Positions 1 to 52,992 of a stretch of 64,000 nt of DNA are shown piece by piece. Origin of the DNA: Rhodanobacter sp. ANJX3 (GTDB taxonomy: Bacteria > Pseudomonadota > Gammaproteobacteria > Xanthomonadales > Rhodanobacteraceae); NCBI RefSeq assembly GCF_014200755.1, contig NZ_JACHCM010000003.1, forward strand, positions 372,001-436,000, written 5' to 3'. The first letter of the stretch is position 1, and each line of letters opens with the position of its first letter. A program made the translations under genes and the position numbers. The notes under the pieces were generated by a model. That model made no database searches. It was not told the origin of the DNA and saw only the letters and a list, made by a program, of their open reading frames with translations.

Positions 1-210
1 GCCGTTGGCATGCGTCCAAGCGATCAGGGGGCGCCCATAACGACACATCACAATGGTCTACTCACACGAGGGCCGTTAAGGTAGACACATAGAGTCGGCT
101 TTCAGCACTTTACTGGCGCCGGTCAACGGCCTAAGCCCCGATCGCAACGCGTAGAAAATCTTCACTCATGGCAGGTGTCACAAGCCCGCCAACAACACTA
201 TCGAGATCCC

Positions 211-3200
211 ATGTCGATCCATGTTGCCCTGACCCATATCACGCATTACCGCTACGACAGGCTGGTGAAACTGGGGCCGCAGGTGGTTCGCCTGCGGCCT
301 GCACCGCACAGCCGCACGCCGATCCTCAGCTACTCGCTGAAGGTCGAGCCGGCCGGTCATTTCGTGAACTGGCAGCAGGACCCACAGGCCAACTGGCTGG
401 CGCGGCTGGTGTTCCCCGAGCCCACGCGCGAGCTGCGCATCGAGGTCGACCTGGTCGCCGAGCTGTCGGTGATCAACCCGTTCGACTTTTTTCTCGAGCC
501 GTACGCCGAAACCATTCCCTTCGCATACGACGCGGAACAGGGCGAGGAGCTGGCGCCGTATCTGAAAAAACTGCCGATGACGCCGCTGTTCGAGCGCTAC
601 CTGGCCAAAATCCCGCGCGAGCCGCTGCGCAGCGTGGACTTCCTGGTCATGATCAATCAGCTGGTGCAGGGCGACGTCAGCTACCTGATCCGCATGGAGC
701 CAGGCGTGCAGACGCCGGAAGAAACGCTGACCAACGGTTCGGGCTCGTGCCGCGATTCGGCGTGGCTGCTGGTGCAGCTGCTGCGCCATCTCGGGCTGGC
801 CGCGCGCTTCGTCTCCGGTTACCTGATCCAACTGGTGCCCGACGTCAAATCATTGGACGGCCCATCCGGCACCACGGTCGACTTCACCGACCTGCATGCC
901 TGGTGCGAGGTCTATCTGCCGGGCGCGGGCTGGATCGGTCTGGACCCGACTTCGGGCCTGTTCGCCGGCGAAGGACATATCCCGCTGGCCGCGACCCCGG
1001 AGCCCTCCTCGGCCGCGCCGATCAGCGGCGGTGTGGACGAAAGCGAGGTCGAGTTCGAACACATCATGCGGATCGAGCGCGTGTGGGAAGCGCCGCGCGT
1101 CACCAAGCCGTATACCGAAGACCAGTGGCAGACGATCGAGGCGCTCGGCCATCGCATCGACGAGGATATGCAAAAGCTCGACGTGCGCCTGACCATGGGC
1201 GGCGAGCCGACCTTCGTGGCGATGGACGACCCCGACGGCGCCGAGTGGAACATCGCCGCGCTGGGCCCGACCAAGCGCAAGCTGGCCGGCGAACTGTTCC
1301 ACAAGCTGCGAGCCAAGTATGCGCCCCACGGCCTCGTGCATTTCGGCCAGGGCAAGTGGTACCCGGGCGAACAGTTGCCGCGCTGGTCGCTCAACTGCTT
1401 CTGGCGCCGCGACGGCGAGCCGCTGTGGAGCGACCCGTCGCTGCACGCCGACGAGCGCAAGCCGGGCAGCGCCGATGCCGCACTGGCCGAACGCTTTCTG
1501 CACGGCGTGGCAAAAACGCTGGGCGTGCAGGCCGGTCACGTATTCCCCGCGTACGAAGATGCGTTCTATTACCTCTGGCGCGAGCGCCAGCTCCCGGTCA
1601 ACGTCGATCCGCACGATGCCAAGCTGGACGATGCGCTGGAGCGCAAGCGGCTGGCCAAAGTCTTCGGTCAGGGCCTGGATAAAGTCGTCGGCCACGTGCT
1701 GCCGGTGACGCGCAGCAGCGACGGCAGCTGGAAAAGCGGCTCGTGGTATCTGCGCAGCGAGCGCTGCTATCTGGTGCCGGGCGACTCCCCCTTGGGCTAT
1801 CGCCTGCCGCTGGATTCGCAGCCGTGGGTGCGCAAGATCGATTTCCCGTTTGTCATACCGCCCGACCCTTCGCGCCCGGTGCTGAAGCTGCCCAGCGCCG
1901 ACGCGCTGAAAAAACAGCTGCTGCCGATCGAGAGCGGCGTCGCATTGAGCGGGCATGTCACCACCACCGAGGATGTTCCGCCGGCAGCCGGCGAGTCGGC
2001 CGATAACATCGCCCGCCGCGCACTGTGCGCCGAGGCGCGCGACGGCATCCTGTATCTGTTCATGCCGCCGACCGACGAAGTGGACGATTACATCGCGCTG
2101 GTGGCCGCGATCGAAGCGACTGCATCCGCTTTGAAAACGCCGGTGATCCTGGAGGGCTACGAGCCGCCGCGCGACCCGCGCATCAACCAGTTCCGCGTCA
2201 CGCCGGACCCGGGCGTCATCGAGGTGAACATTCATCCAGCCACCGGCTGGGACGAGCTGGTCGAGCGCACCACGCACCTGTACGACACGGCGCGCGAAAC
2301 GCGATTGATCACCGAAAAGTTCATGCTCGACGGCCGCCACACCGGCACCGGCGGCGGTAACCACTTCACCCTTGGCGCGGCGCAGACGCTGGACTCGCCG
2401 TTCCTGCGCCGGCCCGATCTGCTGCGCAGCCTGATTTCGTACTGGAACAATCATCCGTCGCTGTCGTTCCTGTTTTCCGGCCTGTTCATCGGCCCGACCA
2501 GCCAGGCGCCGCGCATCGACGAAGCGCGCAACGACTCGATCTACGAGCTGGAAATCGCCTTCCGCCAGATGCCCTCGCCCGGCGGCGATATCGAACCAGA
2601 CTCTATCGAACCCTGGGTGGTCGATCGCCTGCTGCGCAATCTGCTGATCGACGTCACCGGCAATACGCACCGCGCCGAGTTCTGCATCGACAAGCTGTAC
2701 TCGCCCGACAACGCCACCGGCCGCCTCGGTCTGCTGGAGATGCGCGCCTTCGAAATGCCGCCGCACGCGCGCATGTCGCTGGTGCAGCAGCTGCTGATCC
2801 GCGCATTGATCGCGCGCTTCTGGAAGGAGCCTTACGCGCCGCCGCGACTGATGCGCTGGGGCACCGAACTGCACGATCGTTTCATGTTGCCGCATTTCGT
2901 CAGGCAGGACCTGGCCGATGTGCTCGAGGAAACCCGCAATGCCGGGTACCCGATCGAGTTGGACTGGTTCGCGCCGCATCTCGAATTCCGCTTTCCCAAG
3001 GTCGGCGATTTCGCCAGCCTCGGCGTGGACGTCGAACTGCGTCACGCGCTGGAACCGTGGCACGTGCTCGGCGAAGAAGGTTCGGCCGGCGGCAACGTGC
3101 GCTACGTCGACGCCTCGGTCGAACGCATGCAGGTCAAGGTGCGTGGCATGGCCGGCGATCGCTATGTGATTACCTGCAACGGCCGCGCCCTGCCGCTGAC

Positions 3201-3528
3201 GCCCACCGGCGACGTCGGTGAATTCGTCGCCGGCGTGCGCTACAAGGCATGGCAGCCGCCGACCAGCCTGCATCCCACCCTCCCCGCGGACGCCCCGCTG
3301 GTGTTCGACCTGGTCGACACCTGGATGGACCGCAGCATGGGTGGCTGCCAGTACCATGTCGCGCATCCGGGCGGCCGCAGCTACGACGATTTCCCGGTCA
3401 ACGCCTACGCCGCCGAAAGCCGCCGCCTCAGCCGCTTCTTCCGCCTCGGACACACCCCGGGCCGTATTGGCGCACAGCCCGCGGAGCGCAATCCGAATTT
3501 CCCGTTTACGCTAGACCTTCGACGTTAG
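211..3528 (+). CDS. Transglutaminase-like protein with C-terminal DUF2126 putative amidoligase domain
   Basis: A 1105-residue two-part protein. Residues 1-80 match the bacterial transglutaminase N-terminal domain (start [16 protein letters not shown]). The core has a papain-like triad: Cys180 in [10 protein letters not shown], His229 in DLHAWCEV and Asp245 in LDPTSG. From about residue 320 it is DUF2126, which Pfam describes as a putative amidoligase; [10 protein letters not shown] and [12 protein letters not shown] are conserved-looking blocks. In this family the first part probably cleaves or transfers amide bonds and the second may form them; substrate unknown. The ATG at 211 is preferred over an upstream in-frame GTG at 175 because homologues begin with this MSIHV-type sequence. 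First gene of a cluster reaching 9351. Family call secure, activity inferred. Confidence 0.93.
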
Positions 3529-3615
3529 AAATTCTTCGAACATAGCTTTGGGTCGATTGAGGCATCGACAGCTAAGAATGAGTTTAAGCTGCCAGTCTTC
3601 AAGACTCGAAGGCTT

Positions 3616-4389
3616 ATGCCTGCGTCCCTTATGCTTGATGCCATGACGCCCATCACGCTCGGACTGCTTTTTATTGCCGGCCTCTGGGCCGGAGCTCAGA
3701 ACGCACTCGCAGGTGGTGGGTCGTTCATCACGATTCCCGCGTTGATGCTTGCGGGGCTCGATGCACGGTCCGCGAATATCACCTCGTCGGTCGCGCTGTA
3801 TCCGGGACAGGTAGTCACCGGATTGGCTGGCCGGCGGCTTATCGAGGATGCCGAGACACTCTCGTTCAAGATGATGTGCGTGCTCGGTGCCAGCGGTGGC
3901 CTGATCGGCGCACTGCTCCTGCTGTGGACGCCGAGCGACCTGTTCAAATCCATGCTGCCGTGGCTGATCCTGTTCGCCACATGCTTGTTTGCGTGGTCCG
4001 CCTTCGGGCGCCGCAGGACGGAAAAGCGCAAGCCGATACCCACGGCCGCGGCCGTTTTCCTGCAGAGCGCAATATCGATATACGGCGGCTATTTCGGCGG
4101 CGGCATCGGCTTCATGACGGTAGCCTCGCTCGGGCTGATGGGCCTCTCGGCGCGGCCGGCATCGGCGACGAAAAACGCGCTCGCCGCGGTGATCAACACG
4201 ACTTCGTTGCTGGTCTTTTTGTTTTCCCCGTCGCTGATATGGATACCGGCCCTGCTGCTGGGCGCAGGCGCCATTCTGGGCGGCCTGGTGGGCGCGTGGG
4301 TGCTTCGACGAGTACCGGAAAAGCTGCTGCGCATTCTTATTGTGATCATCGGCATCGTGCTGACTGTTGGCTTGTTCATAACCCAGTAG
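3616..4389 (+). CDS. TauE/SafE (TSUP) family membrane permease
   Basis: A 257-residue integral membrane protein with about eight hydrophobic segments arranged as two similar halves, as in the TSUP family of sulfite, sulfonate or organic-anion exporters. The first half has AGAQNALAGGGSFITIPAL and the second GGYFGGGIGFMTVASLGL, the repeated glycine-rich signature of this family. The start at 3616 follows a GAAGG with a short spacer; ATGs at 3631 and 3643 are possible, and 3643 (MTPITLG) would be the compact family-like start. It lies 87 bases after the DUF2126 gene and before the ATP-grasp gene, same strand, so it may be co-transcribed. The transported compound cannot be read from sequence. Confidence 0.88.
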   Translation: MPASLMLDAMTPITLGLLFIAGLWAGAQNALAGGGSFITIPALMLAGLDARSANITSSVALYPGQVVTGLAGRRLIEDAETLSFKMMCVLGASGGLIGALLLLWTPSDLFKSMLPWLILFATCLFAWSAFGRRRTEKRKPIPTAAAVFLQSAISIYGGYFGGGIGFMTVASLGLMGLSARPASATKNALAAVINTTSLLVFLFSPSLIWIPALLLGAGAILGGLVGAWVLRRVPEKLLRILIVIIGIVLTVGLFITQ

Positions 4390-4564
4390 TGGGAGTCGAT
4401 GGCCCCAGGGAGCGAAAATCCGCGGCGATGACGGGAGTGCGATGTTGGGGTTCGCTGACTCTCATCCCAACCTGCGAGGATTGCACGGCGCTGATGGAAT
4501 CCGCGCTGCCACATCAGGTCGTGTTTCTTTAGACTGTCGGATATACGTTTCCTTCACGGCTCCG

Positions 4565-7054
4565 ATGAACACCGACGCTTACCAGCCGCATCGCGATCGC
4601 TATGACGAGATGCTCGACGCCAACGGCGCGGCGCGGCCGCACTGGCGGCCGATGCTGACGCACTTGCGCGAGACCTCGGCGGTGCAGATGCGCCAGCGGC
4701 AGGAGTTTGTGCGCAGCCAGGTGCTGGAAAACGGCGTGACGTACAACATGTACGCGTCGACTCAGGGCGCGGCGCGGCCGTGGGATCTGGATCCGCTGCC
4801 GCTGCTGCTGCCAGCCAGCGAATGGTCGGAGCTTGCCACCGCCGTGGCGCAGCGTGCGCGATTGTTGGATGCGGTGCTGGCTGACCTTTACGGCCCGCAA
4901 GCGCTGCTGGCCGAGGGGCTGATTCCGCCGGCGACGGTGTACGGGCATCCGGATTTTCTGTGGCCGTGCCGCGGGCTCCAGCCGCCGGGCGGGCGCTTTC
5001 TGCATCTGTACGCGGTGGACTTGGCGCGGTCGGCCGATGGCCAGTGGTGGGTGATCGGCGATCGGGCGCAGGCGCCGTCGGGCGCGGGCTACGCGCTGGA
5101 GAATCGGCTGATCGTGTCGCGCGCCTTTCCCGAACTCTTTCGTGACTTGAAAGTGCAGCACCTCGCCGAGTTTTTCCGCGCGCTGCGCCAGAACCTGACC
5201 CTGCACGCGCCGCACGACGCCGGCGAAACGCCGCTGACCGTGCTGCTGACGCCCGGCCCGTACAACGAAACCTATTTCGAGCACGCCTACCTCGCGCGTT
5301 ATCTCGGCTTTCCGCTGGTGGAAGGCCAGGATCTCACCGTACGCGGCGAGACGGTGTATCTGAAGACCCTGACCGGCCTGCAGCGCGTGCACGCGATTCT
5401 GCGCCGGCTCGACGACGACTACTGCGACCCGCTGGAGCTGCGCGGCGATTCCGCCCTGGGCGTTCCCGGTCTGCTGCAGGTGGCGCGCGCAGGACGCGTG
5501 CTGATCGCCAACGCGCCGGGCAGCGGCCTGGTCGAATCGGGCGCGATCGCCGCGTTTCTGCCGCGCGTGTGCGAACGCCTGCTCGGCGAATCGCTGGCGA
5601 TGCCGGCGGTGGCGAGCTGGTGGTGCGGCGAACCGGCCGCGCTGGAGTACGTGATCGCGCATCTGGACGAACTGGTGATCAAGCCGGCCTACCCGTCGAC
5701 CACGCACCGACCGATGCTCGGTCGCGATATGCGCGGCAAGGCGCGCGCCGCGCTGATTCTGCGCCTGCGCAAACAGCCGCGCGCCTGGGTGGCGCAGGAG
5801 ATGGTGCGGCTGTCGCAGGTACCAGTGATCTCGCAAGAGCATCACCTGGCGGCGCGGCCGGTCGGCCTGCGCGTTTACGCCACGGCGAATACCGACGGTG
5901 GCTATACGGTGATGCCCGGCGGTCTGGCGCGCGTGGCCGGCACGCCGGTGGCGCAGATGATCAGCATGCAGCGCGGCGGCGGCAGCAAGGACACCTGGGT
6001 ACTTTCCGACGTGCCGGTGAGCCGCTTCAGCCTGCTGGCCAACACCATCACCGCGAAAGAGCTGGTGCGCAGCCCGTCCAATCTTTCGTCGCGACTGGTG
6101 GAAAATCTGTTCTGGTTCGGCCGCTATACCAGCCGCTGCGACGACAGCGCGCGCCTGTTGCGCATCACGCTCACGCGCTATGCCGACACCAGCGCCATGC
6201 CGGCGCGCGAATCGGCGCTGGTGCTGTGCAAGGGACTGAATCTGTTTGCGCCGGTGGAGAAGGACGAGCCCGAGCCCAAACCCGACGACGCGATATGGAC
6301 GGCCATTTGCGATGCCAGGCGCGTAGAGAGCCTGACCGCCAACCTGCGTCACCTGGCCTGGACCGGCACCCAGATCCGCGAGCATCTGTCGCTGGACAAC
6401 TGGCTGATGCTCAACCAGCTGCCGCTTCCGCCGACGACGGATGCGCGCAAAAAAGCGGGACTCAGCGCTGCCCTGGAGTATCTGGACAACAGCCTGATTC
6501 TCGGCGTGGGCCTGTCGGGTTTCGCGATGGACGGCATGACGCGCGACAACGGCTGGCGCTTTCTGATGATAGGCCGTCATCTGGAGCGGCTGGCCTTTAT
6601 GGCATCGGCCAGCGCCTGTTTTCTGCATCACGGCGTCGATCAAGGCTGGCACAGCCTGGACTGGCTGCTCGAAGTGGCCGACAGCTCCATCACCTATCGC
6701 AGCCGCTATCGCGCGCAGCCCGAGCTGCTGCCGGTGCTCGACCTGGTGGTGTTCGACGATAGCAATCCGCACGGCGTGGTATTCCAGCTGCGCCAGCTGC
6801 TGATCCATCTGGGCGAACTATCCGCCGATCTCGGCGGCGATCACTACGCGCTGGCGGACGAGCTGCTGGCGGTGCTGCAGGAATACACCGGGTTCGAGCT
6901 GTCCACGCTGGAGCAACCGGATGAGTCGGTCTTGCTGGCCCTGGCGACACTGCTTGGCAACACCGCCCGCGCGGCGCGCGAGCTTTCCGACGTGCTTGCC
7001 GCCCGCCACTTCACCCATGTCGGCGAGCGCAGCCGGCAGACGCTGGCCGCCTGA
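4565..7054 (+). CDS. Circularly permuted ATP-grasp protein fused to alpha-E domain
   Basis: An 829-residue fusion. Residues 1 to about 500 correspond to the circularly permuted type 2 ATP-grasp family (COG2308), with blocks such as LLTPGPYNETYFEH, DLTVRGETVYLKTL and LDELVIKPAYPSTTHRP. From about residue 503 (SPSNLSSRLVENLFWFGRY) it is the all-helical alpha-E domain (COG2307), often a separate gene elsewhere. ATP-grasp ligases join a carboxylate to an amine through an acyl-phosphate, so a peptide or amide ligase is likely. The ATG at 4565 is chosen because the family sequence starts at MNTDAYQPHRDRYDEM; an upstream in-frame start at 4442 would add unrelated residues. A transglutaminase gene follows after 36 bases. 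Confidence 0.94.
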   Translation: MNTDAYQPHRDRYDEMLDANGAARPHWRPMLTHLRETSAVQMRQRQEFVRSQVLENGVTYNMYASTQGAARPWDLDPLPLLLPASEWSELATAVAQRARLLDAVLADLYGPQALLAEGLIPPATVYGHPDFLWPCRGLQPPGGRFLHLYAVDLARSADGQWWVIGDRAQAPSGAGYALENRLIVSRAFPELFRDLKVQHLAEFFRALRQNLTLHAPHDAGETPLTVLLTPGPYNETYFEHAYLARYLGFPLVEGQDLTVRGETVYLKTLTGLQRVHAILRRLDDDYCDPLELRGDSALGVPGLLQVARAGRVLIANAPGSGLVESGAIAAFLPRVCERLLGESLAMPAVASWWCGEPAALEYVIAHLDELVIKPAYPSTTHRPMLGRDMRGKARAALILRLRKQPRAWVAQEMVRLSQVPVISQEHHLAARPVGLRVYATANTDGGYTVMPGGLARVAGTPVAQMISMQRGGGSKDTWVLSDVPVSRFSLLANTITAKELVRSPSNLSSRLVENLFWFGRYTSRCDDSARLLRITLTRYADTSAMPARESALVLCKGLNLFAPVEKDEPEPKPDDAIWTAICDARRVESLTANLRHLAWTGTQIREHLSLDNWLMLNQLPLPPTTDARKKAGLSAALEYLDNSLILGVGLSGFAMDGMTRDNGWRFLMIGRHLERLAFMASASACFLHHGVDQGWHSLDWLLEVADSSITYRSRYRAQPELLPVLDLVVFDDSNPHGVVFQLRQLLIHLGELSADLGGDHYALADELLAVLQEYTGFELSTLEQPDESVLLALATLLGNTARAARELSDVLAARHFTHVGERSRQTLAA

Positions 7055-7090
7055 GGAAGTGGCACGGCGATAGCCTGCTATCGTTCGCAC

Positions 7091-8047
7091 ATGGCACGTT
7101 ACAGGGTTACCCACGACACGCATTACCGGTACGACGCGCCGGTGGCTTTGTCGCGTCAGCTGCTGCACCTGACGCCGCGCGAGCTGCCGCGCCAGCAGTG
7201 CCTGGATCATCGGCGCCAGATCATCCCCGAGCCGAGCTTTCAACGGGAACACGACGATGCTTTCGGCAATGCCTCGGCGATGCTCGCGTTCGAGGCACCG
7301 CACGACGAACTGTGGGTACGCACCGAAAGCGTCGTCGAGGTGTTTTCGCCCGACCCGACCAGCTTCGCCGATACGCCGGCGTGGGAAACCGTGCGCAACC
7401 GCCTGCAATACCACGCCGGCGACTCGCCCTCGCCGGTCACGCTGGCCGCGCTGCAATACCGCTTCGGCTCGCCGTACGGACGCATCAAACGCCGCTTCGC
7501 CAACTATGCGGCGGACTGCTTCCCACCCGGTCGATCGATGCTGGACAGCGTGCTCGCGTTGAACGCAAAGATCCATCGCGACTTCGCCTTCGACCCCGAA
7601 GCCACCACCGTCGCCACGCCCGTGGCCGATGTGCTGACGCGTCGGCGCGGCGTGTGCCAGGACTTCGCCCACGTGATGGTGTCGTGCCTGCGCTCGATCG
7701 GTCTGGCTGCGCGCTACGTCAGCGGCTACATCCTCACCACGCCGCCGCCCGGCCAGGAACGACTGATCGGCGCCGACGCTTCGCATGCCTGGGTGTCGGT
7801 GTGGTGCCCGGGCGAGGACGAAGACCGCTGGATCGACGCCGACCCCACCAACAACCTGCTGCCCGGCAGCCAGCACATAACGCTGGCCTGGGGCCGCGAC
7901 TTCGGCGATGTGTCGCCGCTGCGCGGCGTGATTCTCGGCGGCGGGGAGCAGGAATTGAAAGTGAGCGTCACCATGCTGCCGCTGGACGAGCTGCCGCTGA
8001 ATAACGCCACCAGCGATGCGCTGGCGCAGTGGCAAAAACAGTCCTGA
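7091..8047 (+). CDS. Transglutaminase family protein
   Basis: A 318-residue stand-alone transglutaminase-like protein. It has the bacterial transglutaminase N-terminal domain (MARYRVTHDTHYRYDAPV) followed by a cysteine-protease-fold core with Cys189 in RRGVCQDFAHV, His232 in ADASHAWVSV and Asp251 in DADPTNN. Proteins of this family may act as peptidases or transamidases. It starts 36 bases after the ATP-grasp/alpha-E gene and is probably in the same transcript. ATP-grasp, alpha-E and this type of transglutaminase are a recurrent trio in bacterial genomes. It differs from the first transglutaminase in the cluster by lacking DUF2126, so the two probably act at different steps. No signal peptide is evident, consistent with a cytoplasmic location. 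Confidence 0.93.
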   Translation: MARYRVTHDTHYRYDAPVALSRQLLHLTPRELPRQQCLDHRRQIIPEPSFQREHDDAFGNASAMLAFEAPHDELWVRTESVVEVFSPDPTSFADTPAWETVRNRLQYHAGDSPSPVTLAALQYRFGSPYGRIKRRFANYAADCFPPGRSMLDSVLALNAKIHRDFAFDPEATTVATPVADVLTRRRGVCQDFAHVMVSCLRSIGLAARYVSGYILTTPPPGQERLIGADASHAWVSVWCPGEDEDRWIDADPTNNLLPGSQHITLAWGRDFGDVSPLRGVILGGGEQELKVSVTMLPLDELPLNNATSDALAQWQKQS

Positions 8048-8070
8048 CTACATGGGCTTCACCGGCGCTT

Positions 8071-8113
8071 CGCCGTCATGCCGCACCTCTCGCGGTGGCG
8101 CGGCATGACGGCG
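8071..8113. other. Perfect 14-bp stem-loop between genes
   Basis: An inverted repeat with 14-bp arms (8071-8084 and 8100-8113, sequence CGCCGTCATGCCGC and its complement) and a 15-base loop lies 23 bases after the transglutaminase stop. No T-run follows on the plus strand, so it is not a classical intrinsic terminator. It may stabilise the upstream mRNA end or be a repeat-family hairpin. Confidence 0.4.
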
Positions 8114-8247
8114 CTGACCAAGCTCAAAAGTGTTAAACGGGTCGATCGATGCAGCCCGCGCCACGATTCACTTCCAGCATGCGCGCGCATCGACAGAATG
8201 ACGGTTCGAAGGTGCGCAAAGGCGCGGCCAGGGGGTTTGCGAAGGTC

Positions 8248-9351
8248 ATGAAAACGTTCCACTGCAATAGCTGCAACCAGCAGGTGTTTTTCGAAAACGT
8301 ATTGTGCGAGCGCTGCGGCCACATGCTGGGCTACGTCTACGATCTGGACGACGTGACCGCGTTCGAACCGGACGACAACGGCTTCTGGCGCAGCCTGGAC
8401 GCACGCAGCAACGGCCGCAGCTACAAGCAGTGCCAGAACTACATCGCCGAGCACGTGTGCAACCGGATGATTCCTACGGACGATCCCGAATCGCTGTGCA
8501 AATCGTGCCGGCTCACGCTCACCATTCCCACGCTGTCGTCCGACGAAAATCGCGAATATTGGTACAAGCTCGAGCGCGCCAAGCGCCGCCTGCTGTATAC
8601 GCTCACGCACCTCGACCTGCCGATCGAATCGCGCGAGGAGAATCCGGAAACCGGGCTCGCCTTCGAGTTTCTGGAAAACCAGCTGGGCGAGCCGCCGGTG
8701 CATACCGGCCACTCCGACGGATTGATCACGCTGAACATCGCCGAGGCGGACGACGGCTATCGCGAAAAAACCCGCACGCGCCTGCACGAACCCTATCGCA
8801 CCCTGCTCGGTCACTTTCGCCACGAGATCGGCCACTACTACTTCATGCGCCTGATGCAAGAAGGCCCGCTGATGGACGAGTGCCGTGCGATCTTCGGCGA
8901 CGAACGCGTGGACTACGGCGAAGAAATCAAGCGTCACTACCAGGAAGGGCCGCCGGCGAACTGGGAATCATCCTACATCAGCGCCTACGCCACCATGCAC
9001 CCGTTCGAGGATTGGGCGGAAACCTGGGCACATTACATGCACATGGTCGACACGCTGGAAACCGCCAGCGCCTGCGGCCTGATGCTGGCACCGTCCAACC
9101 CCAGCGAACCGTCGCTGCAGGTCGAGCCGGTGGACATAGTGACGCGCTCCTTCAGCGAAATGATCGAGCGCTGGTTCCCGCTGACCTACGTGCTGAACAG
9201 CCTCAACCGCAGCATGGGTACGCCCGACGGCTACCCATTCGCACTGGCGCCGCCGGTGATCGACAAGCTGCGCTTTATCCATAAAGTGATACGCACGCAG
9301 GGCAATGTGCCGGCATCGACGCCGAATAGCCCGGCATTGCAACGTACTTGA
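8248..9351 (+). CDS. Zinc-ribbon putative zinc-binding metallopeptidase
   Basis: A 367-residue protein with an N-terminal zinc ribbon (Cys6, Cys9, Cys20, Cys23 in HCNSC and LCERCGH), a further CKSC pair, and a zinc-metallopeptidase motif HEIGH at residues 192-196 within FRHEIGHYYF. EDWAETWAHYMHMVDT further on may supply another ligand. This matches the putative zinc-binding metallopeptidase family often seen beside ATP-grasp/alpha-E/transglutaminase genes. The start at 8248 (MKTFHCNSCNQQ) is chosen because the zinc ribbon begins there; an upstream in-frame ATG at 8149 adds a basic, low-information tail. It is the last gene of the cluster on the same strand, 200 bases after the transglutaminase. 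It probably cleaves the cluster's product or an acceptor peptide (inference). Confidence 0.88.
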   Translation: MKTFHCNSCNQQVFFENVLCERCGHMLGYVYDLDDVTAFEPDDNGFWRSLDARSNGRSYKQCQNYIAEHVCNRMIPTDDPESLCKSCRLTLTIPTLSSDENREYWYKLERAKRRLLYTLTHLDLPIESREENPETGLAFEFLENQLGEPPVHTGHSDGLITLNIAEADDGYREKTRTRLHEPYRTLLGHFRHEIGHYYFMRLMQEGPLMDECRAIFGDERVDYGEEIKRHYQEGPPANWESSYISAYATMHPFEDWAETWAHYMHMVDTLETASACGLMLAPSNPSEPSLQVEPVDIVTRSFSEMIERWFPLTYVLNSLNRSMGTPDGYPFALAPPVIDKLRFIHKVIRTQGNVPASTPNSPALQRT

Positions 9352-9433
9352 TGCGGCAACATCGCACGTCGGCATCCGATGGTTGACCACCGGACGCCGA
9401 TGCAGCCCCAGGCCGCACATCTCACCGCACGCA

Positions 9434-9447
9434 TGAATACGTATGCA
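9434..9447. promoter_or_regulatory. Candidate LacI-family operator upstream of GH31 gene
   Basis: TGAATACGTATGCA is a near-perfect palindrome with an 8-bp perfect core ATACGTAT centred on CG, as is usual for LacI-family operators. The same 17-base sequence (9433-9449) recurs at 12006-12022 before the next hydrolase gene. A LacI-family regulator gene lies in the same cluster at 15881-16939. The site is about 60 bases before the GH31 start. Confidence 0.65.
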
Positions 9448-9508
9448 GCGCCGCACTCCGGCTCGACGGCGGGCCTACCATGGCCGCTTCCAGCAAAAGG
9501 GACGGGCG

Positions 9509-12156: not shown

Positions 12157-14361
12157 ATGCTGAGCCTGCTGCTCACGGCGGCGCTGGCAGCCGGTGCTGC
12201 CACCCCGACTCCGCAGTGGCAGGACGGCCTCGACTGGCACGGCGTGCATGTCGCGATGACACTCGGCGCGCAGGGCGGTTACACGCTGGCATGGCCATAC
12301 GGCCAGCGCGCGATCGCCGCGCAGGCGATGCGGGTCGACACGGCCAGCACGCTGTTCAACGGCCTTTTCGCGATGGCGCAGGACGATCTCGCCCAGGATT
12401 CGGTCAGCGCGATCCGCGACGACGCCTTCGATCACGGCCAGCCGATTCCCTGCCAGTGTTTCGAGACCGGGCTGAAGTGGCCCTACGTGTGGACGCGCGA
12501 TCTGTCGTACGCGGTCGATCTGGGCCTGTGGCGTTTCGATCCCGCGCGCTCGCGCAACGGCCTGCAGTTCAAGCTGTCCGAGGTGCGGTTGCCAGCAGGC
12601 GCGGCCGCCAGCCAAAGTATGGTGATGCAGGACACCGGCTCCGGCGGCAGCTGGCCGATCAGCACCGATCGCGTGGTGTGGTTTCTCGGCGCGCGCCATC
12701 TGCTGGATGAGCGGGCGTTTGCGGCGCAGGTGTACCCCGCGCTGCGCAACACGCTGGCGCAGAATCGCACCTATGCATTCGATGCGCGCTTCGGGCTGTA
12801 TCGCGGTGAAACCTCGTTCCTGGACTGGCGCGAGCAGAGTTATCCCGCGTGGACGCAGAACAACGTGGTCGCGATCGCTCAGTCGTTCGCGCTGTCGACC
12901 AACGTGCTGCATTACGGCGCCTTGCAGATGGCGGCCGCGCTGGCGTTATCGCATGGTGATCCCAGCGCTGCTGCGGATTATCGCGCGCAGGCGGCGGCGC
13001 TGAAATCGGCGATCAATGCGCGCTTCTGGCGCGACGATCGCCGTATGTACATGAGCTATATCGGCGGCGACGGCACGCCCTACGACAGCTACGATCTGCT
13101 CGGCATCGCGCTGGCCATCACCAGCGGCGTGGCCGAGGGCGATCGCGCGCGGCAGGCGCTGGCCAGCTATCCGACCTGGCCGGCCGGCAGCCCGGTGATC
13201 TGGCCCGAGCGTGTCGATCAGCCGATCTATCACAATCGCGCGATCTGGCCCTTCGTCAGCGCCTATGCGTTGCGCGCCGCGCGTCGCATCGACGATCCCG
13301 CGCGCATCGCGCACGAACTGCAGTCGATCATGCGCGGCGCGGCGCTGTACGGCTCCAATATGGAAAACTACGAGCTGCTGACCCAGGGCCAGCATCTCGA
13401 CGACGGCCCGCTCAGCGGGCCGGTCGTTAATTCGCCGCGTCAGCTGTGGTCGGTCGCGGCGTATCTGGCTGCCGTCACCGAAGGCGTGTTTGGGCTAAAC
13501 GACGATGGCCGCATCGAACCGAAGCTGCCGACTTCGCTGGTGCCGATGCTGTTCGGCGCACGACGCACCATCACGCTGATCTTGCCAAAGCAGACCGTCA
13601 CGCTGCAGCTGCCTTCCACGCTGGGCGACGGCAATCTGCTGGTTGCCGATCACGCCAGCACGTCGGGTACGACGACACTCGTCACGTTGAAAGCGATCCG
13701 CGTCACGGACGAGGCCTTGCGTACCGATGCGCCGCTGTACGCGCCGGTGGGGCCGGATGCACCGGTCGTGACGAGCGTGGCCGATGGTTGGCGCTTGCAG
13801 GTCGATGGCAAGGAGACGATCTATCTCAACGGCGGGCGGATGCAATCGATCGATGAAACAACGATCGTCGCGAAGCAACCCGGCCTGCAATGTTTCAGCG
13901 CCACGCGCGTCGATACACACGGCCTCGAATCCCTGCAAAGCCCGGCGACATGCGTTGGCGATACCGCAAAAATCGGCGGCGCATGGCCGCGCCAGTGGAC
14001 AGCCACCACGAGCGGCCACTATCGCGTGTGGCTGAGCTACGCCAACGATCACGGGCCGATAAACACAGGCATTACTGCGGCGGTAAAGATGCTGATCGTG
14101 CAGTGCGGCGACGAAGACGCCCAGCGCGTGCCGCTGGTGATGCCGCACAGCCTCGGCGAGCAGGCCTCCACCTATGGCGAGTTCACCGCCAAAGCCGGCA
14201 ATCATTGCAGCTTCAATCTCGACGACGGCTTCAACATGAGCTATCTCGCTCACTTCGCGCATTACACCGGCGGCGCCGGCGGTGATAGCGGGCCGTTGAA
14301 CGACGCCAATATCCACGAATTGCAGATCGCTCTGCTCGCACCCGGAAACATCCCACCATGA
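12157..14361 (+). CDS. Six-hairpin glycosidase-like secreted protein
   Basis: A 734-residue protein resembling the (alpha/alpha)6 six-hairpin glycosidase superfamily (GH15/37/63-like), with PYVWTRDLSYAVDLGLWRFD, ETSFLDWREQSYPAW and NYELLTQGQHLDDGPLSGP as characteristic blocks, and a C-terminal beta-rich region of about 200 residues. It probably attacks the same glucan or oligosaccharide as the GH31 neighbour; specificity cannot be assigned. The 12157 ATG gives a hydrophobic leader with no basic n-region and no good ribosome site. A better start (ATG 12116 after GGGGAG) lies in another frame and would supply the missing n-region if a one-base shift occurred near 12150. Its stop overlaps the symporter start by four bases. 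Confidence 0.82.
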   Translation: MLSLLLTAALAAGAATPTPQWQDGLDWHGVHVAMTLGAQGGYTLAWPYGQRAIAAQAMRVDTASTLFNGLFAMAQDDLAQDSVSAIRDDAFDHGQPIPCQCFETGLKWPYVWTRDLSYAVDLGLWRFDPARSRNGLQFKLSEVRLPAGAAASQSMVMQDTGSGGSWPISTDRVVWFLGARHLLDERAFAAQVYPALRNTLAQNRTYAFDARFGLYRGETSFLDWREQSYPAWTQNNVVAIAQSFALSTNVLHYGALQMAAALALSHGDPSAAADYRAQAAALKSAINARFWRDDRRMYMSYIGGDGTPYDSYDLLGIALAITSGVAEGDRARQALASYPTWPAGSPVIWPERVDQPIYHNRAIWPFVSAYALRAARRIDDPARIAHELQSIMRGAALYGSNMENYELLTQGQHLDDGPLSGPVVNSPRQLWSVAAYLAAVTEGVFGLNDDGRIEPKLPTSLVPMLFGARRTITLILPKQTVTLQLPSTLGDGNLLVADHASTSGTTTLVTLKAIRVTDEALRTDAPLYAPVGPDAPVVTSVADGWRLQVDGKETIYLNGGRMQSIDETTIVAKQPGLQCFSATRVDTHGLESLQSPATCVGDTAKIGGAWPRQWTATTSGHYRVWLSYANDHGPINTGITAAVKMLIVQCGDEDAQRVPLVMPHSLGEQASTYGEFTAKAGNHCSFNLDDGFNMSYLAHFAHYTGGAGGDSGPLNDANIHELQIALLAPGNIPP

Positions 14362-50693: not shown

Positions 50694-51413
<720 letters not shown>

Positions 51414-51513
51414 GACGCTGGTCAAGGCTGGCACCTTTGCCCTCCACACATGCCTATGGCCGCATCGGCAGCCAAGCGTTAGGATGTTGGTCAGTTCCTT
51501 CGAACAGGCTGGC

Positions 51514-52992
51514 ATGAAACCTGCTCTCCAGTTTCGTCTTCATCAGCAGCTGACCCTGACGCCGCAACTGCAGCAGGCGATCCGTCTGTTGCAACTCTCG
51601 CAGCTGGAGCTGGAGGCGGAACTGCGTCAGATCGCCGAGAGCAACCCGCTGCTCGAGTTCGCCGAAGAAAGCGAGGATGTCGAGCCGGCCGACGGCGCGG
51701 ATGACGATACCGACTACGTCAATCCGGAGCGCCCCAGCGCTGCCGCGGGCACCGAAAACGACAACAGCAACGACGACACCGGCGAATGGGCCGAAGGCGG
51801 CGGTGCGGCCGAATCGCCGATCGATTTTTCCAGCAGCAGCCTGGGCAGCAAGACCAGCAACACGGCATCGCGCGGCGACGAGGATTTCGAACCGCAGAAC
51901 GCCGCGCCCGACACGCTGCAGCAGCACCTGCTGTGGCAGCTCAACATGGCCTCGTTCAATCCACGCCAGCACGCCATCGCCGCCGTGCTCATCGACGCGA
52001 TAAATGCCGATGGCTACCTCGACGAGAGTCTGGAAACCCTGCTGACGGCGCTGCCGGAAGGCATCCGCGCCAGCATTGAGGAAATAGACGCCGTGCGCCG
52101 GCGCCTGCAGGGCTTCGACCCGGCCGGCGTGGGCAGCCTGGATCTGCGCGACTGCCTGCGCGTGCAGCTGGAGCAGTTCGCCGCCGACACGCCGCATCGC
52201 GATCTGGCGCTGCGTATCGTCGACACCGAGCTGGAGCTGCTGGCGCGCAACGACAGGGTGCGCCTGGCACGTCGTCTGCACGTCACCGAAGACGACGTGG
52301 TCTCGGCCGCCCTGCTCATCCGCAGTCTCGACCCACGCCCCGGCGCAGCCTTCGACGCCACGCCGGTGGAATACGTGGCGCCCGACGTCTATGCCCTGCG
52401 CGACGGCACTCGCTGGCGGGTCAGCCTCAACGCCGACTGCCAGCCCAAATTGGGGCTCAACCAGCATTATTGCGGCCTGATCGCCCGCGCCCGCGGCGAA
52501 GACGCCAGCTGGATGCGTGGCCAGCTGCAGGAGGCGCGCTGGCTGATCAAGAGCCTGGAATCGCGTGCCGAAACGCTGCTCAAGGTCGCCGAGGTCATCG
52601 TGCGCCGGCAGAGCGCCTTTCTCGACTACGGTCCGGAAGCGATGCATCCGCTGGTGCTGCGCGAAGTGGCCGAAGAAGTCGGCATGCACGAGTCGACCAT
52701 CTCCCGTGTGACCACGCGCAAATATTTGCACACGCCGCGTGGTACGTTCGAACTGAAGTATTTTTTCTCCAGCGGCGTCTCCACCGAAGACGGCGGCAGC
52801 GCATCGGCCACCGCAATCCAGGCGATGCTGCGCAAGCTGATCGGCGCCGAAGACGCGCGCAAGCCCCTATCCGACCAAGCCATCGCCGAGGAACTTCATC
52901 GCAAAGGCATCCAGGTTGCCCGCCGCACCGTCGCCAAATACCGCGAAGGCCTGCGCATCCCCAGCTCCAGCGAACGTCAGCGCGCCAACTGA
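51514..52992 (+). CDS. rpoN: RNA polymerase sigma-54 factor RpoN
   Basis: A 492-residue sigma-54. Region I starts MKPALQFRLHQQLTLTPQLQ with the Gln/Leu-rich activator-contact segment. An acidic region II (EESEDVEPADGADDDT) follows, then the core-binding and helix-turn-helix regions (VAEEVGMHESTISRVTTRKY). The C-terminal RpoN box is ARRTVAKYRE. It drives -24/-12 promoters with AAA+ activators. The ATG at 51514 matches family starts; an in-frame ATG at 51484 is possible. It follows lptB by 100 bases and precedes hpf. Confidence 0.98.
   Translation: MKPALQFRLHQQLTLTPQLQQAIRLLQLSQLELEAELRQIAESNPLLEFAEESEDVEPADGADDDTDYVNPERPSAAAGTENDNSNDDTGEWAEGGGAAESPIDFSSSSLGSKTSNTASRGDEDFEPQNAAPDTLQQHLLWQLNMASFNPRQHAIAAVLIDAINADGYLDESLETLLTALPEGIRASIEEIDAVRRRLQGFDPAGVGSLDLRDCLRVQLEQFAADTPHRDLALRIVDTELELLARNDRVRLARRLHVTEDDVVSAALLIRSLDPRPGAAFDATPVEYVAPDVYALRDGTRWRVSLNADCQPKLGLNQHYCGLIARARGEDASWMRGQLQEARWLIKSLESRAETLLKVAEVIVRRQSAFLDYGPEAMHPLVLREVAEEVGMHESTISRVTTRKYLHTPRGTFELKYFFSSGVSTEDGGSASATAIQAMLRKLIGAEDARKPLSDQAIAEELHRKGIQVARRTVAKYREGLRIPSSSERQRAN

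Follow-up and report, generated by a model that had tools for sequence, protein, structure and literature searches.

An amidoligase/alpha-E/transglutaminase gene cluster with an adjoining zinc metallopeptidase gene in Rhodanobacter sp. ANJX3

Genes and domains at the locus

Examination of a 64,000-nucleotide stretch of the genome of Rhodanobacter sp. ANJX3 (here called the window) revealed five genes in tandem on the forward strand between positions 211 and 9351 (Table 1). This row of genes had been proposed from the sequence alone, and Pfam matched every domain named in that original prediction. The DUF2126 part of gene 1, which also carries the transglutaminase (TG) domains Bact_transglu_N and Transglut_core, was matched over its full length (1327.6 bits, profile positions 1 to 826 of 826), and gene 3 matched CP_ATPgrasp_2 with 518.9 bits and Alpha-E with 198.7 bits. 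A start of gene 3 at position 4565 is more likely than the listed start at 4442. The full-length family scores, together with a gene order conserved in 74/80 loci, rule out that the cluster arose by chance. The window matched no PADLOC defense-system profile at E ≤ 0.01, and its sole NCBIfam match was a subthreshold hit to the permease.

Table 1. Features of the cluster in the window
Feature	Position	Strand	Description	Evidence
Gene 1	211..3528	+	TG domain (aa 1-275) fused to DUF2126 (aa 276-1104)	Pfam
Gene 2	3616..4389	+	TauE/SafE permease, separates gene 1 from gene 3	Pfam (TauE, 130.5 bits)
Gene 3	4565..7054	+	ATP-grasp in circularly permuted form (about 4799-5938), followed by a fused alpha-E helical domain (about 6083-7012)	Pfam
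Gene 4	7091..8047	+	Second TG (Bact_transglu_N and Transglut_core)	Pfam
17-nt inverted repeat	8071..8113	+	Between genes 4 and 5; 94% complementary, 9-nt loop, no T-run	
Gene 5	8248..9351	+	Zinc metallopeptidase (Zn_ribbon_DZR_6 and Peptidase_Mx); HEIGH at 8821-8835, E258	Pfam (Peptidase_Mx, 358.5 bits)

Both predicted TGs have intact catalytic triads, C180/H229/D245 in gene 1 (130/130 sequences) and C189/H232/D251 in gene 4 (90/90 sequences; both alignments include redundant loci and the window's own copies), but the first is fused to DUF2126 and is not a separate gene. The permease could be assigned more exactly to the TauE/SafE family. The predicted HEIGH zinc peptidase belongs to Peptidase_Mx (PF15887), whose zinc ribbon and HExxH metallopeptidase features are both present in gene 5, and HEIGH and E258 are retained in 27/27 sequences. 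The inverted repeat, which is not among the terminator-like elements listed for the window, may mark an end or separation of transcription between genes 4 and 5.

A conserved three-gene core and its partners

Genes 1, 3, and 4 follow the order TG-DUF2126, ATP-grasp-alpha-E, TG, which 74 of the 80 homologous loci share and which was also found on an Acidobacteriota plasmid and on an Enterobacter plasmid. The window follows its relatives in having the separate TG downstream, though the permease intervenes between genes 1 and 3. At L017 and L073, which both have room downstream, and in a genome of the same family (L142), TG-DUF2126 is not immediately followed by genes 3 and 4. In a phmmer search, the permease was found in none of the 80 loci, and export via this protein was therefore rejected as a feature of the system. 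A unit of all five genes is thus not supported: neighbor conservation holds for the three core genes, fails for the permease, and is facultative for the peptidase. The block is missing from this site in all three congeners compared; its edge stretches of 600 and 500 bases, compared for marks of a mobile element, share no direct repeats of at least 9 nt and only 9-nt inverted matches.

Among 199 genomes of the phylum, DUF2126 is present in 60 and alpha-E in 115, with both in 60 and DUF2126 without alpha-E in none (Fisher P = 6e-19, kinship ignored). All 60 DUF2126 genomes also have a match of the stand-alone alpha-E class, as judged by score and frame length, with genome G163 the least clear. 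In Rhodanobacter sp. ANJX3, a stand-alone ATP-grasp/alpha-E/TG set lies on another contig (C2:443047). Outside the core, the larger neighbor clusters represent Pseudomonas synteny, and the other annotated ones comprise genes for a second alpha-E, a sensor kinase, a diguanylate cyclase, a chemoreceptor, an oxidoreductase, a radical SAM protein, and a regulator. Of the 10 annotated representatives, three had no Pfam match and none was a transporter or amine-metabolism gene.

Of the 34 genomes with a peptidase gene, 11 carry it no more than 10 kb from the system (about 0.5 expected); they cover eight families and several orientations. No copy was found within this distance in the other 23. The linkage also occurs in Bacteroidota, and 33 of the 34 genomes have alpha-E; in one relative (G004), DUF2126 and the peptidase share a contig, separated by about 2.6 Mb. 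The peptidase is hence a facultative partner that has repeatedly re-associated with the system, and the open-licence literature searched contained nothing on Peptidase_Mx together with alpha-E or amidoligase. Anbu, a relative of the proteasome beta subunit, is present in 75/199 genomes, 74 of them with alpha-E, and adjoins the system in several loci; in Rhodanobacter sp. ANJX3 it had no match at E ≤ 1e-10. The alpha-E genomes divide into 25 with peptidase and Anbu, 8 with the peptidase only, 49 with Anbu only, and 33 with neither (P = 0.13). Peptidase_Mx as a substitute for Anbu was rejected, since this is no negative association and both genes are adjacent in L154 and L155.

The original prediction saw no substrate peptide gene in the cluster, and this was confirmed. 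No conserved substrate or precursor gene was recognized among the 15 largest clusters of small ORFs from around the core of 51 chosen loci (L081 and L143 being the same stretch of one genome). Those of the 15 that are common to at least four loci read as pieces of stand-alone alpha-E, antisense shadows, and ends of histidine-kinase and Anbu genes. The 19 small ORFs of the window gave no match (blastp, E ≤ 1e-3).

Candidate ligases, known systems, and nitrogen control

The original prediction counted two ligases in the cluster. Both families are present, but in gene 3 the metal-binding E-x-N and the glycine-rich loop of the ATP-grasp are gone. Judged by these motifs, this domain is probably a pseudoenzyme, which makes an active second ligase within the cluster doubtful. 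In the fused ATP-grasps, the N of E-x-N is substituted in 42/42 and the E in 41/42 sequences, and the loop glycines are mostly lost; the motifs are intact in 20/20 stand-alone ATP-grasps, and the one at C2:443047 has E-D-N and GGYG. DUF2126 and this intact stand-alone ATP-grasp are thus the likely candidate ligases. DUF2126 is a predicted glutamine-synthetase/glutamate-cysteine-ligase-like carboxylate-amine ligase. For its AlphaFold model (pLDDT 76), 49 of the best 50 Foldseek matches in the PDB fell to glutamine synthetase, GmaS, YbdK, or relatives of glutamate-cysteine ligase, all weak (best E 5e-3, nothing at E ≤ 0.001, TM ≤0.36 of target length, alignment in sequence order only). No sequence relatives of DUF2126 were found in the PDB. 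The alpha-E model (pLDDT 91) gave no convincing match to solved structures (best E 0.11), and a profile search likewise gave none. The term DUF2126 does not occur in the open-licence literature searched, where the only activity or product found for any member of the system was the release of phosphate from ATP by a Yersinia stand-alone ATP-grasp (PMC6376114).

The association of ATP-grasp, alpha-E, TG, and DUF2126 named in the original prediction proved correct, and the cluster does not represent a new kind: it belongs with the amidoligase/alpha-E/TG system reportedly predicted from genomes by Iyer, Abhiman, Burroughs, and Aravind in 2009. The window shares with it all core domains, the TG N-terminal to DUF2126, the ATP-grasp-alpha-E fusion, and the TG, and differs by the same-strand Peptidase_Mx directly downstream, the TauE/SafE permease that separates gene 1 from gene 3, and the lack of a sigma-54 site. 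The ATP-grasp fused to alpha-E is reported to be inactive in the Pfam text for PF04174, to which the motif loss seen here corresponds at the sequence level. Rv2566-Rv2569c and Rv2409c-Rv2411c of Mycobacterium tuberculosis are presumably similar gene sets; the one paper found on them in the open-licence literature searched does not concern function.

The Anbu operon (Pseudomonas putida PP_2685-2688, where gene identities other than proteasome-like and TG are putative, and Yersinia bercovieri) has the alpha-E, ATP-grasp, and TG families in common with the window, and induction by nitrogen limitation is seen in relatives. The window differs by DUF2126 and the fused, probably inactive ATP-grasp, and its genome has no Anbu match; the operon's active stand-alone ATP-grasp, alpha-E, and TG have their counterpart at C2, outside the window. 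In Burkholderia cenocepacia, I35_5080-5083 (PMC5491218) form a row similar to that of the window, with genes for ATP-grasp, alpha-E, TG, and a large protein with a TG domain that is probably TG-DUF2126. They depend on NtrC; no sigma-54 site was found in the window. The Rlo operon of Pseudomonas aeruginosa shares the logic of ATP-grasp, TG, and peptidase; the available text describes a RimK-compared ATP-grasp, an inactive membrane TG, and a retropepsin-like protease and does not mention alpha-E (PMC12239564), whereas the TG triads of the window are intact and its peptidase is of the HExxH zinc type.

A sigma-54-type site (TGG-N8-TTGC, 30 to 120 bp upstream) precedes the system in 60 of 128 regions compared with 1.9 expected and with 1 and 2 for control spacings; 42 of the 60 regions belong to one upstream cluster. 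No such site was found upstream of the window copy, though the genome has sigma-54. The B. cenocepacia system is controlled by NtrC together with urease and nitrate genes (PMC5491218), and the P. putida operon is induced by nitrogen limitation (PMC7801951). Induction of PP_2686-2688 was kept in an rpoN mutant (14- to 20-fold, versus 11- to 15-fold in the wild type), which argues against sigma-54 for that operon; urea transporter genes behave likewise in this data set (PMC7801951). The P. putida operon is of the Anbu type, and DUF2126 is not among the genes named. In marine metagenomes, the system is associated with urea domains (PMC3597751). The main texts of studies on the Mycobacterium smegmatis GlnR regulon and on Pseudomonas stutzeri NtrC do not contain the system's terms and give no support for nitrogen control, and the sole TG named in a Caulobacter NtrC preprint, hvyA, is a different one.

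Possible functions of the system

Domains, kept or lost motifs, gene order, co-occurrence, and promoter pattern were observed directly. On this basis, the cluster most likely carries out a cycle in the cytosol in which amide bonds are made and edited, a reading that we hold with about even confidence and for which we infer every chemical step and substrate. DUF2126 would activate a carboxylate with ATP and join it to an amine. The ATP-grasp of gene 3, its Mg-ATP binding probably impaired, could serve with alpha-E as a scaffold or substrate holder beside the intact stand-alone set of the other contig. The two papain-like TGs may transfer or hydrolyze amides, and Peptidase_Mx may trim or recycle the product. 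In relatives, the system would respond to nitrogen limitation, probably via NtrC/sigma-54, the site for which is missing in this genome.

A small-molecule pathway, in which a nitrogen-rich amide such as a gamma-glutamyl or polyamine conjugate is made or broken under nitrogen limitation for storage or scavenging, would need no peptide gene. The weak glutamine-synthetase/GmaS/YbdK-like fold matches, the sigma-54-type promoters of relatives, NtrC control alongside urease and nitrate genes (PMC5491218), nitrogen-limitation induction (PMC7801951), and the link to urea domains (PMC3597751) point this way. Structure 3n6x, the relative of the stand-alone ATP-grasp that has been solved, was deposited as a putative glutathionylspermidine synthase, but this is a label and not an assayed activity. 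As a peptidase and two TGs exceed the needs of such a pathway and the 10 annotated neighbor representatives include no transporter or amine-metabolism gene, we consider it rather unlikely. Less probable still is protein tagging or turnover, likened to a small ubiquitin or pupylation cycle, in which proteins receive a peptide or amino acid from the ligases and the TGs and Peptidase_Mx (Anbu elsewhere) remove this tag or degrade the tagged protein. A proposal of this kind is repeated in PMC6376114 and PMC5666114, and the co-occurrence of Anbu with alpha-E (74 of 75 genomes) and its position beside the system are consistent with it. However, this Rhodanobacter genome has no Anbu match, Peptidase_Mx is not a statistical substitute (P = 0.13), the scan of 51 loci revealed no tag gene, and peptidase activity of YbAnbu was not detected according to the available text of PMC6376114.

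The adjacency of ligase, TG, peptidase, and permease would also suit a RiPP-like pathway in which the five genes modify, trim, and export a ribosomal peptide. This is very improbable, given that, among the 15 largest small-ORF clusters, those present at four or more of the 51 loci resemble neighbor-gene pieces or antisense shadows, that all 80 loci lack the permease, and that the constant core order across phyla appears to differ from usual product clusters. It is plausible, though less likely than not, that permease and peptidase are chance neighbors brought in with the inserted block and that genes 1, 3, and 4 with the other-contig set form the functional unit. The permease-free loci, the repeat separating genes 4 and 5, the distance between DUF2126 and peptidase in G004, and the absence of the block from the congeners agree with this. 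Since the peptidase is linked to the system in 11/34 genomes of eight families with differing orientations, also in Bacteroidota, and 33/34 peptidase genomes have alpha-E, chance suits the permease but hardly the peptidase.

The cluster belongs to a widespread family, with DUF2126 in 60/199 and alpha-E in 115/199 sampled genomes of the phylum. The question of its function is now narrower: it is clearer which ligase is likely alive, DUF2126 accompanies the stand-alone set, a sigma-54-type promoter precedes the system in many relatives, and Peptidase_Mx is a recurrent partner. As a speculation to which we give little weight, the active stand-alone ATP-grasp/alpha-E set and the DUF2126 ligase could be two tiers coupled by the conserved pseudo-ATP-grasp-alpha-E adaptor, yielding an intracellular amide tag or polymer that is controlled by nitrogen status and removed by Peptidase_Mx (Anbu in other genomes). 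If true, this would be a reversible cycle of tagging or storage that has not been described before.

Composition and genomic setting of the cluster

Pfam matches bore out the gene list of the original prediction, except that the first transglutaminase (TG) and DUF2126 are encoded by one gene, not two. From reading its translation, gene 3 probably starts at 4565 and not at 4442. Since a signal-peptide-like N-terminal stretch was seen by eye in none of genes 1, 3, 4, and 5, we infer that their products are cytosolic.

In all three congeners, the GH13b and GH31 matches of an alpha-glucan locus are adjacent; in the Rhodanobacter sp. ANJX3 genome, they are separated by about 13.4 kb that holds the five-gene cluster together with genes for a TonB receptor and an Na/H antiporter. 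No repeats were found at the edges of this block, no transposase was detected by Pfam among its seven genes, and its base composition is not outstanding (the off-frame third-position value of gene 3 being left out). The arrangement fits acquisition or relocation of the block as one. Downstream of the GH31 gene lies an ORF of 734 residues to which no Pfam family was assigned at E <= 1e-10.

Features of the cluster and of related loci (window positions unless a contig or locus is named)
Feature	Position	Strand	Content	Basis
Interrupting block in alpha-glucan locus	L004:8041-12211 + window 1-9480 (contig C3: about 368041-381480)		~13.4 kb
Five-gene cluster	211-9351	+	genes 1 to 5
Gene 1		+	TG + full-length DUF2126, single 1105-residue protein	Pfam
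Gene 2		+	TauE/SafE permease	Pfam
Gene 3		+	CP_ATPgrasp + Alpha-E	Pfam
Gene 4		+	TG	Pfam
Gene 5		+	zinc ribbon + Peptidase_Mx	Pfam
ORF downstream of GH31 gene	12157-14361
Sigma-54 gene (rpoN)	51274-52992		ORF; DNA-binding domain at 52510-52983
Second set, own genome (contig C2)	L003:7407-10819		intact stand-alone ATP-grasp, alpha-E, TG
Rudaea cellulosilytica locus	L081:19527-23006		Anbu, alpha-E, ATP-grasp

Conservation and linkage of the gene families

A scan with gene 1 gave 592 confirmed matches, and in 74 of the best 80 loci genes 1, 3, and 4 follow each other in this order on a single strand. Among the six exceptions, the sequence stops within 1.5 kb of gene 1 in three (L013, L055, and L075), gene 3 lies ~3 kb further on in L072, after which the sequence stops, genes 3 and 4 are about 5.4 kb away in L073, and no counterpart of gene 3 or 4 was found in the 10 kb covered of L017. 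The cluster almost certainly belongs to the known amidoligase/alpha-E/TG system attributed to Iyer et al. 2009. It has an unusual permease insertion and a downstream peptidase. Among the same best 80 of 592 matches, the permease occurs in no locus and the peptidase in three, all from Marinobacter.

The Marinobacter order is peptidase, ATP-grasp, alpha-E, TG-DUF2126, ATP-grasp-alpha-E, TG. The same six families are found on a Caballeronia plasmid, with the peptidase in opposite orientation; in Hymenobacter (Bacteroidota), the peptidase is divergent from ATP-grasp, alpha-E, and TG, and Granulicella (Acidobacteriota) harbors the three-gene core. The system is absent from two other inspected plasmid regions with the peptidase. 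An IncFII plasmid of Enterobacter roggenkampii (L163, NZ_CP116251.1) carries the full set of ATP-grasp, alpha-E, TG-DUF2126, ATP-grasp-alpha-E, and TG near an arsenate reductase gene.

Across a single set of 199 genomes from the phylum, 60 contained DUF2126, 34 Peptidase_Mx, 115 alpha-E, and 75 Anbu, a proteasome-beta relative. Alpha-E accompanies DUF2126 in 60/60 genomes, the peptidase in 33/34, and Anbu in 74/75. DUF2126 accompanies the peptidase in 24 of 34 genomes, counting two (G231 and G241) with only broken or partial peptidase matches; within alpha-E genomes this association has a p value of 0.007 (Fisher test, as for all co-occurrence statistics, with relatedness of genomes not corrected). 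Furthermore, at least 11 of the 34 genomes (G000, G086, G108, G153, G160, G195, G201, G208, G212, G222, and G246), representing eight families, have the peptidase no more than 10 kb away from DUF2126, alpha-E, or Anbu, against ~0.5 expected from random placement. The system is rare in the source's own family, with DUF2126 in 3/59 genomes (and 0/3 congeners) and the peptidase in 5/59, two being weak partial matches.

Anbu had no match in the whole ANJX3 genome. In Rudaea cellulosilytica, of the same family, no more than 10 kb separates the TG-DUF2126 core from Anbu, alpha-E, and ATP-grasp; locus L143 (G008), with an identical Anbu, covers the same region of that genome. Anbu adjoins TG-DUF2126 at L103, L111, and L112 (family f30 genomes G134, G094, and G122); the alpha-E matches of these three genomes are only of the stand-alone class, none of the fused class.

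Upstream sites and nitrogen limitation

The sigma-54-type motif TGG-N8-TTGC was found 30 to 120 bp before the estimated TG-DUF2126 start in 60 of 128 upstream regions, duplicates from the same genomes included, against 1.9 expected from background; control spacings of 7 and 9 gave 1 and 2 regions. After grouping by similarity, 15/59 groups have the site, one of them comprising 42 regions. Such sites are few upstream of stand-alone ATP-grasps (5/24), and none precedes gene 1 of the window (best score, p = 0.63), which also contains rpoN.

In published work, Burkholderia cenocepacia I35_5080-5083 is NtrC dependent (PMC5491218), and Pseudomonas putida PP_2686-2688 are upregulated under nitrogen limitation, 11- to 15-fold (wild type) and 17- to 37-fold (relA/spoT mutant; PMC7801951). 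Together, these data support induction of the relatives by nitrogen limitation. The 14- to 20-fold upregulation of PP_2686-2688 in an rpoN mutant, however, does not fit sigma-54 control; the urt urea-transport genes, assigned by the authors to NtrB/NtrC too, behaved alike in the rpoN data, and PP_2685 rose only 1.1-, 4.8-, and 1.5-fold (wild type, relA/spoT, and rpoN; PMC7801951).

State of the ligases and proposed mechanism

Sequences spanning the ATP-grasp domain numbered 96 (fused) and 36 (stand-alone); 80% clustering reduced them to 42 and 20. With classes assigned according to alpha-E fusion or score, and the low-scoring fused protein of L151 placed in the fused class by hand, E-x-N (the metal motif of ATP-grasps), R, K, and GGYG are kept in 20/20 stand-alone sequences. 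In the fused class, the N of E-x-N is R or H in 42/42, the E is kept in 1/42, the loop glycines in 2, 7, and 4, and the tyrosine in none; K is kept in 29/42 and R409 in all. Gene 3 itself has GDR and TTHR at the motif positions and scores 294.5 bits against 3n6x. These substitutions suggest that its ATP-grasp is probably dead. The Pfam text of PF04174 reportedly describes inactive ATP-grasp forms fused to alpha-E, so the loss supports an existing claim rather than being a new finding. The stand-alone ATP-grasp of the second set closely resembles 3n6x (674.1 bits), a protein with the same motifs, and this set is likely the active partner of the window cluster.

A DUF2126 model (residues 276-1105, built from 41 sequences; pLDDT 76, pTM 0.82) found nothing in the PDB at E <= 0.001 using Foldseek. 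Of the top 50 rows, 49 were glutamine synthetase, GmaS, YbdK, or glutamate-cysteine-ligase relatives, members of one superfamily, all weak (best E = 5e-3), which is support, not proof, for a GS-like ligase. Alpha-E gave a confident helical model, for which no solved look-alike structure was found.

The observations are limited to anatomy, the state of the motifs, linkage, and the pattern of promoters. In the proposed mechanism, DUF2126 and the stand-alone ATP-grasp would act as ligases, the fused ATP-grasp-alpha-E protein as adaptor, the TGs as transfer or hydrolysis enzymes, and Peptidase_Mx as trimmer. As a whole, we consider this scheme evenly poised between right and wrong, a judgment unaffected by the rpoN-mutant result because that bears on regulation, not chemistry. 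As comparative findings, the recurrent peptidase linkage and the sigma-54-type pattern may be new relative to open-licence texts.
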